Positions 47,239 through 52,081 of a DNA stretch of 64,000 bases are shown piece after piece. The DNA is from Pseudanabaena sp. UWO311 (GTDB lineage: Bacteria > Cyanobacteriota > Cyanobacteriia > Pseudanabaenales > Pseudanabaenaceae). The notes under the pieces are model-generated. The model was not told the origin of the DNA. It did no database searches and worked only from the letters and a program-made list of their open reading frames with translations. Both the position numbers and the translations under genes were made by a program. Every line of letters begins with the position of its first letter. Position 1 is the stretch's first letter. The stretch lies in the NCBI RefSeq assembly GCF_006937785.1, contig NZ_SJEE01000019.1, positions 1 through 64,000 of the forward strand, written 5' to 3'.

Positions 47239-47313
47239 TTTAGGGATTACACTTCAGAACTTAGAAACCATTTAAGAATTACGTTCTGAAGTCAAAAAAT
47301 CTAAGAAATCACC

Positions 47314-47362
47314 CCTTTATAAAGGCGTTAATATACTTGACACACCAAGCTTAAAATTTTAG
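47314..47362. repeat. outer inverted repeat, left (49 bp)
   Basis: Identical over 49 bp to the reverse complement of 51968-52016. It begins with the small palindrome CCTTTATAAAGG. Confidence 0.95.
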
Positions 47363-47398
47363 ATATTTCTCGTAATTAGAAATTATTTTTTAATTCCC

Positions 47399-47427
47399 TA
47401 TTGCATTTAATACCACTATCGTATATA
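47399..47427. repeat. inner inverted repeat, left (29 bp)
   Basis: Matches the reverse complement of 50943-50971 at 28 of 29 positions (core TTTAATACCACTATCGTATA). It is the candidate terminal repeat of the IS1595-type element. Confidence 0.9.
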
Positions 47428-47464
47428 TTAGAGAGGTAAGGAAAACGCCTTACAAAATAAATAC

Positions 47465-47477
47465 AAAAGGAGGTGAT
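47465..47477 (+). promoter_or_regulatory. full-length Shine-Dalgarno sequence
   Basis: AAAAGGAGGTGAT pairs with essentially the whole 3' tail of 16S rRNA (ATCACCTCCTTT) and lies three bases before ATG 47481. Such a complete match is rare in this window. Confidence 0.85.
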
Positions 47478-47480
47478 TAA

Positions 47481-47669
47481 ATGAATGAATCCAAAAACAA
47501 CGGCAAAGGTAACGGGAATGGACAAAAGGAATATAACCCTGAAGTCGAATTTGAATACCTAGATGCCGATGTTTGGGTCAAAAGTAGCGAAGCTGGCAAG
47601 AGCGTCGCTTATACCGAAGAGGTTCTAGAAGCCCTAGATGAAGATGAAGAATCCGAATCTGAAGACTAA
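47481..47669 (+). CDS. small acidic protein, first passenger gene
   Basis: I do not recognise this 62-aa protein. It has a Gly/Asn/Lys-rich start (NNGKGNGNGQ), a middle with EFEYLDADVWVKSSEAGKS and a strongly acidic tail (EALDEDEESESED), so it is probably disordered and DNA- or protein-mimicking. The near-perfect ribosome binding site and its own terminator predict high expression. It lies just inside the inner left repeat, where it would be driven by a promoter in the element end. Whether it serves the transposition process or the host is unknown. Confidence 0.7.
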   Translation: MNESKNNGKGNGNGQKEYNPEVEFEYLDADVWVKSSEAGKSVAYTEEVLEALDEDEESESED

Positions 47670-47692
47670 CCTCTAACTAACTCAATTTACCG

Positions 47693-47713
47693 CCCCTAGC
47701 TAGCAACTAGGGG
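47693..47713. terminator. terminator after the small acidic gene
   Basis: A 7-bp GC-rich stem (CCCCTAG/CTAGGGG) with a 7-nt loop followed by TTTCTTCCTTT on the plus strand. Confidence 0.75.
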
Positions 47714-47748
47714 TTTCTTCCTTTGTAGCTTAATAGGAGTATATCTTA

Positions 47749-48069
47749 ATGCAAAGTATTGTTCACCCTCTACATTATTTAGTAGTAGAGAGGCAAGGAA
47801 TAACTTGGTATTTTAAATTTGATGAATCTGAAGTTTTTTATAATTCACGCAATTGTCCTACTCCAAAGACAGTAGACGACTTATTTCATCGGTTTAGGCT
47901 AACTGCTTCAAAAGTCGTAGTTGAACTGTTTCGCTTGCACGGCGGTAAGTCTGGCTACTATCTGGCTAACTTGCGCGACAAAAAATATCACTACTGTGGT
48001 TCTAATTGGCAAGACGTTCAAGAAACCTTGCTAGATCTAGGTATTGGTAAGCGTGAGGTAGAGAGGTAG
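47749..48069 (+). CDS. passenger protein of unknown function (106 aa)
   Basis: No family is recognised. The 106-aa protein is mixed alpha/beta, rich in aromatic residues (ITWYFKFDESEVFYNSRNCP, YYLANLRDKKYHYCGSNW) with two widely spaced cysteines, and no membrane segment or signal. It is followed two bases later by a small zinc-finger-like gene, so the two are coupled. The aromatic, basic surface suggests nucleic acid binding, but this is a guess. Confidence 0.7.
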   Translation: MQSIVHPLHYLVVERQGITWYFKFDESEVFYNSRNCPTPKTVDDLFHRFRLTASKVVVELFRLHGGKSGYYLANLRDKKYHYCGSNWQDVQETLLDLGIGKREVER

Positions 48070-48071
48070 CT

Positions 48072-48317
48072 ATGGCACGTCCAAAGAAAGAAAAGGCTTT
48101 TGCTAGCGCTTGCCCTCACACCGATCGCGTAGCTTACTCAAAAGGTATGTGTAAATCCTGTTATAACAAGTCAAAATTGACAGCTGAGGCGATCGCTAAG
48201 ACTAATGCTAGTGATGCTGCAAGACTAGCCAAACAACGCTATGAGGAGGAAAATAGAGAAGAGCGCAATGTCCAGCGTAAGGAATACGCTAGGCGATCGC
48301 GCTCTTCTGAGGGTTAG
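48072..48317 (+). CDS. small zinc-motif protein (81 aa), passenger
   Basis: The 81-aa basic protein has one treble-clef-like metal motif CPHTDRVAYSKGMCKSCY (C..H..C..C) near residues 14-31, then an alanine/arginine/glutamate-rich helix (LAKQRYEEENREERNVQRKE). The motif resembles the N-terminal zinc element of phage HNH/endonuclease VII-type proteins, but the nuclease part is missing. It probably binds DNA or RNA. It is directly coupled to the 106-aa gene. Two HIP1 sites lie in this gene, unlike its downstream neighbours. Confidence 0.7.
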   Translation: MARPKKEKAFASACPHTDRVAYSKGMCKSCYNKSKLTAEAIAKTNASDAARLAKQRYEEENREERNVQRKEYARRSRSSEG

Positions 48318-48406
48318 GCGTATCGGGTGATTACTAGGATCGTTGTTGTGTTATAAGATATTGTATTTAAATTATTAATTAAGGAGATTTAAATCTAGAA
48401 ATATAT

Positions 48407-48880
48407 ATGGATAATAATTTACAAATCAAGTTCTCTTGGGGTACATTCTGCCGCAGGGTAATTATAGATAAAGATACAGAAGAAGTATCTTTAATTGATA
48501 TTATTCCAGCATTAAATGTGGAGCAAGTTTCCCAAATTAAGCTAGAAAATGACAACCAAAAGATTATTGCGTCTTTAGGACAAGTTTATGTAGCTGCTTT
48601 ATTTGAAAAAGTAGATTGTTCAGACGATGAAATTAATGAAAAATTAAATATTGAATTATTGCAAACTGGATTGCCGTCCGTATCTATGCAGGTTGATATT
48701 CTAATAAAAAGTATAGAGTCTTCTACTTTTCTAAACCTTAATCTAGGGAATTTACTTTTGACTACTTCATTAGATATTTCTGAGTATAACTTTGAAGTTA
48801 TTTACAGATTAAAAGAGCAAGAATTGGGAAGAGTTGTAATGCCAGTAAGAGTTAAATTTAAATTATTGGACAATAAATAA
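48407..48880 (+). CDS. passenger protein, DUF6941-like (tentative)
   Basis: The 157-aa beta-rich protein opens with KFSWGTFCRRVIIDKDTEEV followed by SLIDIIPALNVEQ, a pattern that reminds me of DUF6941-type small proteins; I cannot confirm this. No catalytic motif, signal or membrane helix is visible. It is the first of three genes with 1-bp gaps (48407, 48882, 49399) that form one operon in AT-rich DNA. A purine-rich AAGGAG lies about 19 bases before the ATG, too far for a normal ribosome binding site. Confidence 0.65.
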   Translation: MDNNLQIKFSWGTFCRRVIIDKDTEEVSLIDIIPALNVEQVSQIKLENDNQKIIASLGQVYVAALFEKVDCSDDEINEKLNIELLQTGLPSVSMQVDILIKSIESSTFLNLNLGNLLLTTSLDISEYNFEVIYRLKEQELGRVVMPVRVKFKLLDNK

Positions 48881-48881
48881 T

Positions 48882-49397
48882 ATGAATACTATTTTATCTG
48901 CTAATCAAAAAAACATATCTTATCTGCCGACTAACGCAAAACCTTCTTATAATAGTGGTAAATCCATTAAATTGTTTGTGGCTGTAAGTATGCCTAGTGT
49001 TGTTAGTAACTCCTCTAATATAAATAGTAGTTATCAAATAACTAAACAGCGTCTTCTTGATATTGATGATACAAGCTGTGAAGATAATGAAGACGACTGG
49101 GGTGCTACTCGTCCAACTCACTTTGCATGGCAAAAAAGCCTAGAGCTTCTACAGGAAATAGAAAAATATATGAAATCCAATTTCCCATTAGGATTTGCTA
49201 ATTTGGCGAGTACTGGTGGTATTGATCTAATATGGAAAAATCGCAAAACAGAAAATGAAGTTATAGTATTTATCCCTTCAACAGAAAATGAAAATATATC
49301 CTTATATATTGGAGATTTATCAGACAAAAAAAGTAATCTTTGGATCAATCCTTCAATTCAAGTATTAGTTACAGTTTTGCAATTTTTATATCAATAA
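48882..49397 (+). CDS. passenger protein A of a conserved two-gene pair
   Basis: The 171-aa protein has a disordered Ser/Asn-rich first 50 residues and then a compact domain: CEDNEDDWGATRPTHFAWQK, FPLGFANLASTGGIDLIWKN, EVIVFIPSTENENISLYIG. This order (DDWxG, a GG-I-x-L-x-W strand, then a short beta-sheet) is found in many bacteria directly upstream of proteins like the next gene. I know no function for the pair. The one-base gap on both sides implies tight co-expression. Confidence 0.65.
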   Translation: MNTILSANQKNISYLPTNAKPSYNSGKSIKLFVAVSMPSVVSNSSNINSSYQITKQRLLDIDDTSCEDNEDDWGATRPTHFAWQKSLELLQEIEKYMKSNFPLGFANLASTGGIDLIWKNRKTENEVIVFIPSTENENISLYIGDLSDKKSNLWINPSIQVLVTVLQFLYQ

Positions 49398-49398
49398 T

Positions 49399-49752
49399 GT
49401 GATTAACCAAGAATTTCCCCCATTATCAGATGAGGAAAAAGTTTATCGTGCAATTGCTAGAAAGAAAGGATGGATAGATCCTGAAACAAATGATGTTACC
49501 TATGCAGCTTTCGAGTTGCGTCTTAGCAGAGACCCTCCAGAACTAAAACTTTCTGTTTTGATATCTCCTGAAAAGCCTTCTAATTTCACTACTTATGGAT
49601 TTATTGAAATTCAAGTAAAAGATATTCGTGCTTTAGGTCTTGATGTAATTCGAGATTCTAAAACTCATTTAAGTATTATAGGAATACAACAAGATCTTAA
49701 AACCGCCACAGATACCGCAAGAAAATTAGCTAAAAAAGCAAAAGTTGTTTGA
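49399..49752 (+). CDS. passenger protein B of a conserved two-gene pair
   Basis: The start is GTG 49399, one base after the upstream stop. The 117-aa protein begins LSDEEKVYRAIARKKGWIDP, followed by AAFELRLSRDPPELKLSVLI and a C-terminal helix (ATDTARKLAKKAKVV). It fits a widespread small family (charged start, R/S-rich strand, then ALGLDV) that accompanies proteins like the previous one. No enzymatic motif is seen. A toxin-antitoxin or defence role would fit gene size, pairing and mobile context but has no direct support. Confidence 0.65.
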   Translation: MINQEFPPLSDEEKVYRAIARKKGWIDPETNDVTYAAFELRLSRDPPELKLSVLISPEKPSNFTTYGFIEIQVKDIRALGLDVIRDSKTHLSIIGIQQDLKTATDTARKLAKKAKVV

Positions 49753-49822
49753 GTAGCTAATTATTATAGATGGGTTATAGAATATTTACTTTTAGATACA
49801 CCTACAAAAGGCAGGGAAGGAT

Positions 49823-49963
49823 ATGGATAACCAAGATAAAAACTTAGATAAGCCATTATCTGAATTTAACAAATTTGCTGATTTTGCCAAAAAATTACTA
49901 GCAGTACCAAAGCCAGAAGTCCAAGCAAAGGCAATAAGAGTAGTTAAGCGCAAAACCAACTAA
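49823..49963 (+). CDS. 46-aa ORF, passenger
   Basis: Too short for the ORF track. The ATG follows GGGAAGG by two bases. The peptide (PLSEFNKFADFAKKLLAVPK, then VQAKAIRVVKRKTN) is a probable amphipathic helix with a basic tail. Phrases like FAKKLLAVPK resemble the C-terminal ends of small antitoxins. It ends 11 bases before the convergent transposase gene. Confidence 0.5.
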   Translation: MDNQDKNLDKPLSEFNKFADFAKKLLAVPKPEVQAKAIRVVKRKTN

Positions 49964-49974
49964 GGCATAAATTC

Positions 49975-50907
49975 TTAGTCGTTTTTACCAGTCAAGTTTT
50001 TATAAGTGAGTCTTTTACCACTCAAAGAGCTAGCAGCAAAAACAAATCTTTCGCCATCATTAGCTTTGCGATAGTTAAAGCGAAAGCATTGCTCATCTAA
50101 ATAGCGGAATAAGTGAAAAGGTTCTACGCTGATGTAAGTACCCTTTAAAGCACGTTTCAGCAAGCTCCAAAAGTTCTCAATTCCATTGGTAGAAATATGA
50201 CCATCTACATAAGCTTTAGCGTGGTCAATAATCATATGGATGTATTGCTCATCAGTTAGCAAATCATAGCCAGAATGAGCATCTGTATAGACGGTAGAGC
50301 CTGTTTCTACAACTTCCTTAACTTCTTCTGTTAATACTTCTCTTTTGGTGCTAGAGATAACTTTAGCTTTTACCTTGCGAGTAGTTCTATCTAAAACACC
50401 TAAAACGATAGTTTTGCCAGAAGTACCACGACCTCCAAGCTTAGCGCGTTTAGCTCTGTGCATAAATCTAGCTTTACCGCCTACATAGGTTTCATCAATT
50501 TCTACAGCACCAGACATCTTTTCAAAACTACCATTTTGCATCGCTAATCTAATTCTTGACAGTAGAAACCAAGCTGTTTTTTGAGTAATACCGATCGCTC
50601 TATGGATTTCATAGGAGCTAACACCATTCTTACAATTAGCGATCATCCAGATAGCGATTAACCACTTATCAAGCCCTAAAGGGCTATCTTCCATAACAGT
50701 ACCAGTCTTAATAGAGAACTGCTTGCGACATTCTTTGTTTTTGCACTTCCAGATTTTACGAGTACAAGTATATCCAACTTCCTTAGAGCCGCAATGGGGG
50801 CAAGTAACACCATCAGACCAACGAAGATTAACAACAGTTTCAAAAGCTTTCTCTGGATCTGCAAAGTATAAAACTGCTTCTTGTAATGTTTGTGGTAATT
50901 CGCTCAT
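49975..50907 (-). CDS. IS1595 family transposase (ISXO2-like), intact
   Basis: The 310-aa transposase has an N-terminal zinc ribbon (CPHCGSKEVGYTC..KCKNKECRKQF) and an ISXO2-type DDE domain: first D in EIDETYVGGKARF, second D in VYTDAHSGYDLL, and the N/E region STNGIENFWSLLKRALKGTY. Length and motifs are complete, so it could be active. It is on the strand opposite to the passenger genes, ending near the 46-aa ORF and starting 35 bases inside the inner right repeat. IS1595-family elements are known to carry passenger genes, but not, to my knowledge, this set. Confidence 0.93.
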   Translation of the reverse strand: MSELPQTLQEAVLYFADPEKAFETVVNLRWSDGVTCPHCGSKEVGYTCTRKIWKCKNKECRKQFSIKTGTVMEDSPLGLDKWLIAIWMIANCKNGVSSYEIHRAIGITQKTAWFLLSRIRLAMQNGSFEKMSGAVEIDETYVGGKARFMHRAKRAKLGGRGTSGKTIVLGVLDRTTRKVKAKVISSTKREVLTEEVKEVVETGSTVYTDAHSGYDLLTDEQYIHMIIDHAKAYVDGHISTNGIENFWSLLKRALKGTYISVEPFHLFRYLDEQCFRFNYRKANDGERFVFAASSLSGKRLTYKNLTGKND

Positions 50908-50942
50908 TTAATTCTTTTAACCCCTCGTTTAATATAATTAAT

Positions 50943-50971
50943 TATATACGATAGTGGTATTAAATACAATA
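50943..50971. repeat. inner inverted repeat, right (29 bp)
   Basis: Reverse complement of 47399-47427 with one mismatch. It lies just upstream of the transposase start, as expected for an IS end. Confidence 0.9.
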
Positions 50972-51038
50972 AGTTTACATAGAAAAATCCTAAATTATTG
51001 CTAAAATTATCAAAATATTTTTTTTAGCGGTAAATCTA

Positions 51039-51954
51039 ATGAAAAACAAAATTACGCATGAAGGTGAAATAAAGCTAGGTGATTTTTCAATTCCTTGCTA
51101 TGTCCTTGAAGATGGTAAACGGGTTTTGTCTGGTAGAGGGATGCAATCAGCCTTGAAAATGGTTGATGAGACACCAGAAAACAAGAAAACGTCGGGGGCC
51201 AGATTTAGACCGATATTTGAATCAAAAAACGCTAGAACCCTTTATATATAAGGATAAAAAGGTAGACCACTTCAGCCCGATTGATTGCTATAAAGGTAAT
51301 CAAAAAATCAATGGTTTTGAAGCTACGATCCTTATTGATATTTGTGATGCTTTTCTAGAAGCACGAAGAACTATTGAGCTTTCTTCTAGGCAGCAAATAA
51401 TAGCCGATCAATGTGAAGTCCTTGTAATGGGATTTGCGAAACTAGGTTTGATAGCTCTTATTGATGAAGCTACAGGCTATCAATACGACAGGGAGAAAGA
51501 TGAACTTCAAAGGTTGATCAATATCTACGTTGTTGAAGAGTTAAGACCATGGAGCCATACCTTTAAAGATACTTACTACAAAGAAATATTTCGATTGAGA
51601 GGATGGGATTTTACCGTATCAGGTATAAAAAAACGACCAGGAGTTGTTGGCACATGGACAACTAAGCTGATTTATGATCAGCTTCCAAAAGGAGTTGTAG
51701 ATGAGCTGAAGAAAAAGACTCCTAAAAGTGAAAGTGGCAACTATACCGCAAGATTGCATCAAAGTTTAACGAGTGATATTGGAGAGCCTCATTTAAAATC
51801 CCAATTAGATTCCGTTATTACACTCATGGAAGCATCTGACACATGGGATGAATTTATAAAAAACTTCAACAAAGTTGTAGCAAGAAGGCAGGGATATCAT
51901 CAGTTGGATTTAAAACTTGAATTAAAACCAGAAGATTTCCCAGAGGACAAGTAA
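51039..51954 (+). pseudogene. P63C-domain protein with a +1 frameshift in a G run
   Basis: The track ORFs 51039-51251 and 51163-51954 are one gene. The first gives GDFSIPCYVLEDGKRVLSG and the second DLDRYLNQKTLEPFIYKDKK through KLIYDQLPKGVVDELKKK, the P63C domain seen in phage and plasmid proteins. The frames join if one G is removed from GGGGG near 51196, giving about 304 aa. The gene is between the inner and outer right repeats. It may be a true pseudogene, a sequencing error or a slippage site; the function of P63C proteins is unknown. Confidence 0.8.
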
Positions 51955-51967
51955 AAACGAAAAAAGA

Positions 51968-52016
51968 CTAAAATTTTAAGCTTGGTGTGTCAAGTATATT
52001 AACGCCTTTATAAAGG
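51968..52016. repeat. outer inverted repeat, right (49 bp)
   Basis: Perfect reverse complement of 47314-47362. It starts 13 bases after the P63C stop. Confidence 0.95.
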
Positions 52017-52051
52017 CGGCTGGGTGGATCTAGACAATTCTTAAATGGTTT

Positions 52052-52081
52052 CTTAGAAGCAATTCATGAATTGCTTCTAAG
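52052..52081. terminator. 30-bp perfect palindrome at the TPR gene stop
   Basis: CTTAGAAGCAATTCA and its exact complement with no loop bases, followed by GTTTTTTGG on the plus side. It contains the minus-strand stop of the TPR gene, and its first bases touch the island edge. Confidence 0.8.

Follow-up and report, generated by a model that had tools for sequence, protein, structure and literature searches.

The island at positions 47324-52006 of the window (the whole 64,000-nucleotide stretch of Pseudanabaena sp. UWO311 DNA that was analysed) is very probably a single IS1595-family transposon of the transporter-IS type, 4683 bp in size and flanked by the 8-bp sequence TTTATAAA. A first-pass annotation of this DNA had described one element inside another and could name neither. 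The island has a GC content of 35.3%, compared to 41.0% for the window, and contains two HIP1 sites (GCGATCGC) in 4.7 kb as opposed to 1.9 per kb outside, which bears out the AT-rich, HIP1-poor interior described earlier. The IS1595-type transposase reported within it is likewise complete. It is encoded on the minus strand (49975-50907; 310 aa) and combines an N-terminal zinc ribbon (PF12760; Bitscore: 41.3, cut-off: 25.4; e-value: 1.5e-10) with the IS1595 DDE catalytic domain (DDE_Tnp_IS1595, PF12762; Bitscore: 137, cut-off: 27; e-value: 6.5e-40).

When compared with one another, the outer arms at 47314-47362 and 51968-52016 are identical and inverted, as the first-pass annotation had noted for its 49-bp perfect repeats, but the true transposon end comprises only 39 bp. 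This outer repeat opens with GGCGTTAATATACTTGACACACC and occupies 47324-47362 on the plus strand (GGCGTTAATATACTTGACACACCAAGCTTAAAATTTTAG) and, by sequence match to the left end, 51968-52006 on the minus strand. Alignment of the window element with a second copy on contig C13 of the same genome sets the element end at GGCGTTAATATAC. The remainder of each arm consists of an 8-bp palindromic target-site duplication (47316-47323 and 52007-52014, exact copies of each other) and two chance bases (CC/GG): as TTTATAAA is its own reverse complement, it extends the inverted match, together with the neighbouring CC/GG, from 39 bp to an apparent 49 bp. The register of the duplication is that observed in miniature inverted-repeat elements (MITEs) of the genus and in five relatives.

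The end motif, allowing up to three mismatches, occurs in 13 of 26 genomes of the genus, mostly as pairs approximately 140 bp apart, which represent MITEs. When the 8-bp flanks of 27 elements bounded by these ends were compared, 176 of 216 positions agreed and the signal peaked at precisely 8 bp; in 10,000 shuffled re-pairings, agreement averaged 98.8 positions and never exceeded 138. These target-duplication statistics rule out that the outer repeat is merely an unrelated terminator. Hairpins followed by T-runs do lie just within the ends, for example CCTAAAGTTTTAGG-TTTTTTTT in the C13 copy, as would be expected if the outer repeats terminated transcription or were a palindrome arisen by chance, and were not the ends of a transposon; set against the exact 8-bp duplications, the many genomic copies as MITEs and the conservation of the ends in relatives, this explanation has a negligible probability. 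MITEs of approximately 140 bp with IS1595 ends were located at L054-L090 (genomes G002, G003, G007, G011, G014 and G020-G022), where no close relative of the window transposase was detected, and many of these insertions appear by eye to lie in hairpins of the CCCC-TTTTTAA-GGGG type. Searches with the left end produced no match in phage collections and chance-level matches only in plasmid collections.

The assignment of the transposase to the outer repeats, rather than to the inner unit to which it had been attributed, derives from comparison with its relatives. These are found in Verrucomicrobiota, Acidobacteriota and Scytolyngbya, mostly at 50-61% amino acid identity, and in another cyanobacterium at 39% (L122), and in most of them a terminal repeat directly precedes the transposase gene. 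The end sequences include GGTAATAATATACTTGACAAACC, GGTATTTATATACTTAACTCACC, GGCGATTGTATACTTGACGTACC and similar ones, and the outer end of the window element shares 16-19 of 23 bases with those of seven relatives, a match equalled by none of 2000 shuffles, while the inner repeat matches them no better than shuffled sequence (p 0.39-0.97). Exact 8-bp duplications, among them CTCCGGAG, AAACGAAC, TAGCGAAG and ATCTGCAA as well as AAGTGTTT in L125, flank five of the seven (L122, L124, L125, L126 and L127) and are absent in the other two (L128 and L130). Since the outer end matches the ends of the relatives and the inner repeat does not, the outer repeats are, as judged from sequence comparison, the ends recognised by the IS1595-family transposase of the island, which thus constitutes one transposon. 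Further IS1595 transposases encoded in the genus, with ~30% identity, were also considered as owners of the inner repeats and were rejected; where found, their ends read GGCTCAATAGGTG... and are unlike either repeat.

The first-pass annotation was correct in observing a second inverted pair nested inside the first: the inner arms (47399-47427 and 50943-50971) are inverted and match at 28 of 29 positions. It had taken them to delimit an inner unit (47399-50971) within a 1.1-kb P63C element; spelled out, this would be an IS1595 transposon inside a non-autonomous P63C cassette with unrelated ends. Three features could be reconciled with such an arrangement, namely the near-identity of the inverted arms in the window copy, the extra genes which both copies carry beyond the inner pair and which differ between them, and the homology of the transposase module between the copies, which breaks off precisely where the right inner arm has its outer boundary (50971; L018:8375). 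However, no target duplication occurs at the inner pair in either the window or the C13 copy, the inner arms resemble the ends of none of the relatives examined, all of which match the outer arms, and the inner motif is present nowhere in the genome beyond these two elements. Furthermore, in a decayed relative in genome G004 the motif occurs once, simply upstream of an 81-aa gene. The stand-alone 1.1-kb P63C element that had been suggested as a search target was not found either, and neither of the genus's two intact P63C relatives is flanked by such inverted repeats. A nested origin of this kind is therefore highly improbable. A related candidate, in which a mobile insertion cassette (MIC) or other non-autonomous outer element carries a nested IS, was rejected because the inner arms lack a duplication and are unlike the ends of relatives.

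The only nesting supported by the alignments is that of the IS1595-family transposon inside an older dispersed repeat of approximately 150 bp. The further ~20-bp inverted match noted around the arms is present (47260-47280 / 52036-52056), but it lies outside the element and corresponds to the two ends of this repeat, of which the left half occupies 47253-47315 and the right half 52015-52057. When the element and one duplication were removed by script, the joined flanks were collinear with one repeat in L003, L005, L009 and L012. The transposon jumped into the central hairpin of this MITE-like repeat, whose two ends now flank the island. The repeat itself is a hairpin with ends TTTAGAAACCATTTAAGAATT, unrelated to IS1595 ends, and is found in at least eight other places in the genome, on contigs C22, C33, C27, C50, C54, C8 and C41. 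An exact empty site between the hydrolase and TPR genes, which had been proposed as a check, was not found in any strain examined; in G013 these two genes are adjacent, without either the transposon or the target repeat, while at orthologous loci, where the hydrolases are 91-95% identical, they are followed by a different gene.

A second copy of the transposon was located by searching the host genome with the left end (contig C13, G000:C13:329284-336502; L018:3285-10503). This 7219-bp element has the same ends as the window element and an exact duplication, TTAATTTT. Its transposase shares 91% identity with that of the window element and is itself frameshifted. Apart from an 81-aa gene that both copies have, the cargo is different: a TIGR04255 gene accompanied by two partner genes, a gene with a Panacea domain, and one for a 646-aa GHKL ATPase. 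The latter shows weak similarity to the BbrUII/HgiDII restriction enzymes and is 41% identical over 629 residues to the GHKL ATPase of a 6.2-kb relative in Scytolyngbya (L125:6160-12322), which is flanked by the exact duplication AAGTGTTT and also carries a PD-T4-6-like kinase. The decayed G004 relative (L189:7600-9420, contig C277) retains one recognisable end and a single copy of the inner-repeat core, followed by the 81-aa gene, DUF6978 and DUF1828; no transposase match was obtained at this locus. In the passengers of two further relatives, L124 and L128, RNxxxH motifs (HEPN-like) were seen by eye only and no Pfam family scored above the cut-off, so that a defence or toxin-antitoxin function is a lead rather than a result.

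Eight passenger or accessory genes lie within the ends of the window element, and a single genome holds two copies with different cargo. The seven small passenger genes reported earlier were recovered as seven plus-strand open reading frames, encoding 62, 106, 81, 157, 171, 117 and 46 amino acids. No family could be assigned by domain search to the products of the first two (47481-47669 and 47749-48069). The third (48072-48317) encodes an 81-aa protein with a Cys/His motif (CPH..CKSC), a candidate regulator, and is common to the window element, the C13 copy and the decayed G004 relative (79% and 76% identity). Its predicted structure comprises a short, irregular Cys-rich part and one long helix, with no recognisable DNA-binding fold in a model of low confidence (pTM: 0.36). 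The next three genes form a module, in which gene A (48407-48880; 157 aa) is followed by gene B (48882-49397; 171 aa) and gene C (49399-49752; 117 aa). Relatives of gene B were identified in 11 other cyanobacterial genomes of 390, in most of which gene C adjoins it, and this uncharacterised B-C module (171/117-aa type) is scattered over the cyanobacteria (L170-L180), with a gene A of approximately 230 aa ahead of it in two cases (L171 and L172). Homology between gene B of the window element and its positional counterpart in the C13 copy (207 aa) was not significant. The 46-aa gene (49823-49963) is convergent with the transposase gene and encodes a companion conserved in this transposon subgroup at 46-55 aa; a profile built from five copies recovered held-out ones near the transposase in L127, L128, L129, L133 and L134. 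The eighth gene, the P63C gene (51039-51954, plus strand), is present as reported (PF10546; e-value: 1.5e-29), but in this assembly a frameshift interrupts it, with the start in one frame (51039-51251) and the P63C part in another (51163-51954); alignments to homologues begin only at approximately position 51205.

Since the inner pair shows no target duplication and is confined to the two elements, it most likely represents internal regulatory DNA. The 13-bp core, ACCACTATCGTAT, occurs at four sites in the host genome, two per element and inverted, and none of 193 other cyanobacterial genomes contains the 27-bp inner pattern. The core precedes the operon with the 81-aa gene in all three elements and the transposase gene in two of two. 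A -35/-10 arrangement with a 17-bp spacer fits at three sites (TTGCAT/TTGTAT ... TATATT/TATAAT/TATAAC). Most of the inner sites are located ~35-55 bp upstream of start codons. In the window element, the left repeat (TTGCAT-17-TATATT, plus strand) faces the cargo operon, and the right repeat (TTGTAT-17-TATAAT, minus strand) lies 36 bp upstream of the transposase start. We therefore consider it probable that the inner repeats, with a putative operator written ACCACTATCGTATATA, constitute the same regulated promoter in duplicate, in convergent orientation. In a generic promoter scan, the inner sites were missing from the list and promoter-like sites were not in excess. In both the window and C13 copies, a hairpin-like sequence with a T-rich tail can be seen just inside the end, which could stop incoming transcription, in which case a separate promoter within the element would be of use. 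Alternatively, the inner repeats could be subterminal binding or recombination sites, of an enhancer or resolution type, for the transposase or another protein of the element. There are exactly two per complete element, always inverted, and the core is invariant at all five sites, that of G004 included, while the -35-like part varies, all of which would suit such a role; but no comparable inner pair exists in L125, the closest outside relative, or in L124 and L127, and the promoter-like 17-bp spacing and the position just upstream of start codons also speak against it, making this alternative unlikely.

Members of the IS1595 family usually generate 8-bp duplications and, outside the IS1016 group, carry an N-terminal zinc finger (PMC8101967). 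The window element shares with this family both transposase domains, ends beginning with GG and 8-bp target duplications, its own being AT-rich. However, at 4.7 and 7.2 kb it and the C13 copy are not one-gene insertion sequences, and in the window element the transposase gene is situated in the middle of the cargo and accompanied by the small companion gene. Transporter ISs (tIS), a class described in PMC3129680 with citation of the 2009 IS1595-family paper of Siguier et al., similarly carry passenger genes unrelated to transposition, but the window element differs from that description in having passengers on both sides of the transposase gene and a repeated internal promoter-like sequence. 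The short, transposase-less copies in the genus, with the same ends and 8-bp duplications, resemble MITEs and MICs, whereas the window element has a cognate transposase gene of its own and is as such not a MIC.

The transposase would bind the outer ends and insert the entire 4.7-kb unit with staggered 8-bp cuts, so that the passengers to the left and right of the transposase gene are carried along in the same move; at this locus, the recipient was the older ~150-bp dispersed repeat. The transposase may also act in trans on the 7.2-kb sister copy, whose own transposase is dead. Within the element, one inner promoter would drive the transposase gene and the other the cargo operon with the 81-aa gene, and the two would be coupled or held in check by a common regulator, for which the 81-aa product is a possible candidate.

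It is possible, although we hold the view only tentatively and rate it as rather doubtful, that this IS1595-type subgroup serves across phyla as a shuttle for toxin-antitoxin-like or defence-like modules together with the ~50-aa companion, and that in this lineage a regulator of the element controls both transposase and cargo through two operator copies. A literature search on IS1595 elements with anti-phage cargo returned no paper combining all terms. The analysis turns an unnamed island into a named and testable transposon, and the end sequence TATACTTGAC near a GG terminus provides a handle for finding related cargo carriers and MITEs across phyla. The cargo across the elements, which includes Panacea-domain, TIGR04255, GHKL-ATPase, PD-T4-6-like kinase and DUF1828/DUF6978 genes, suggests that the carriage of candidate defence genes is not restricted to large islands but extends to small insertion sequences. 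If truly such, the paired operator-like repeats would show in a simple form how a transposon can tie its mobility to the expression of its cargo.
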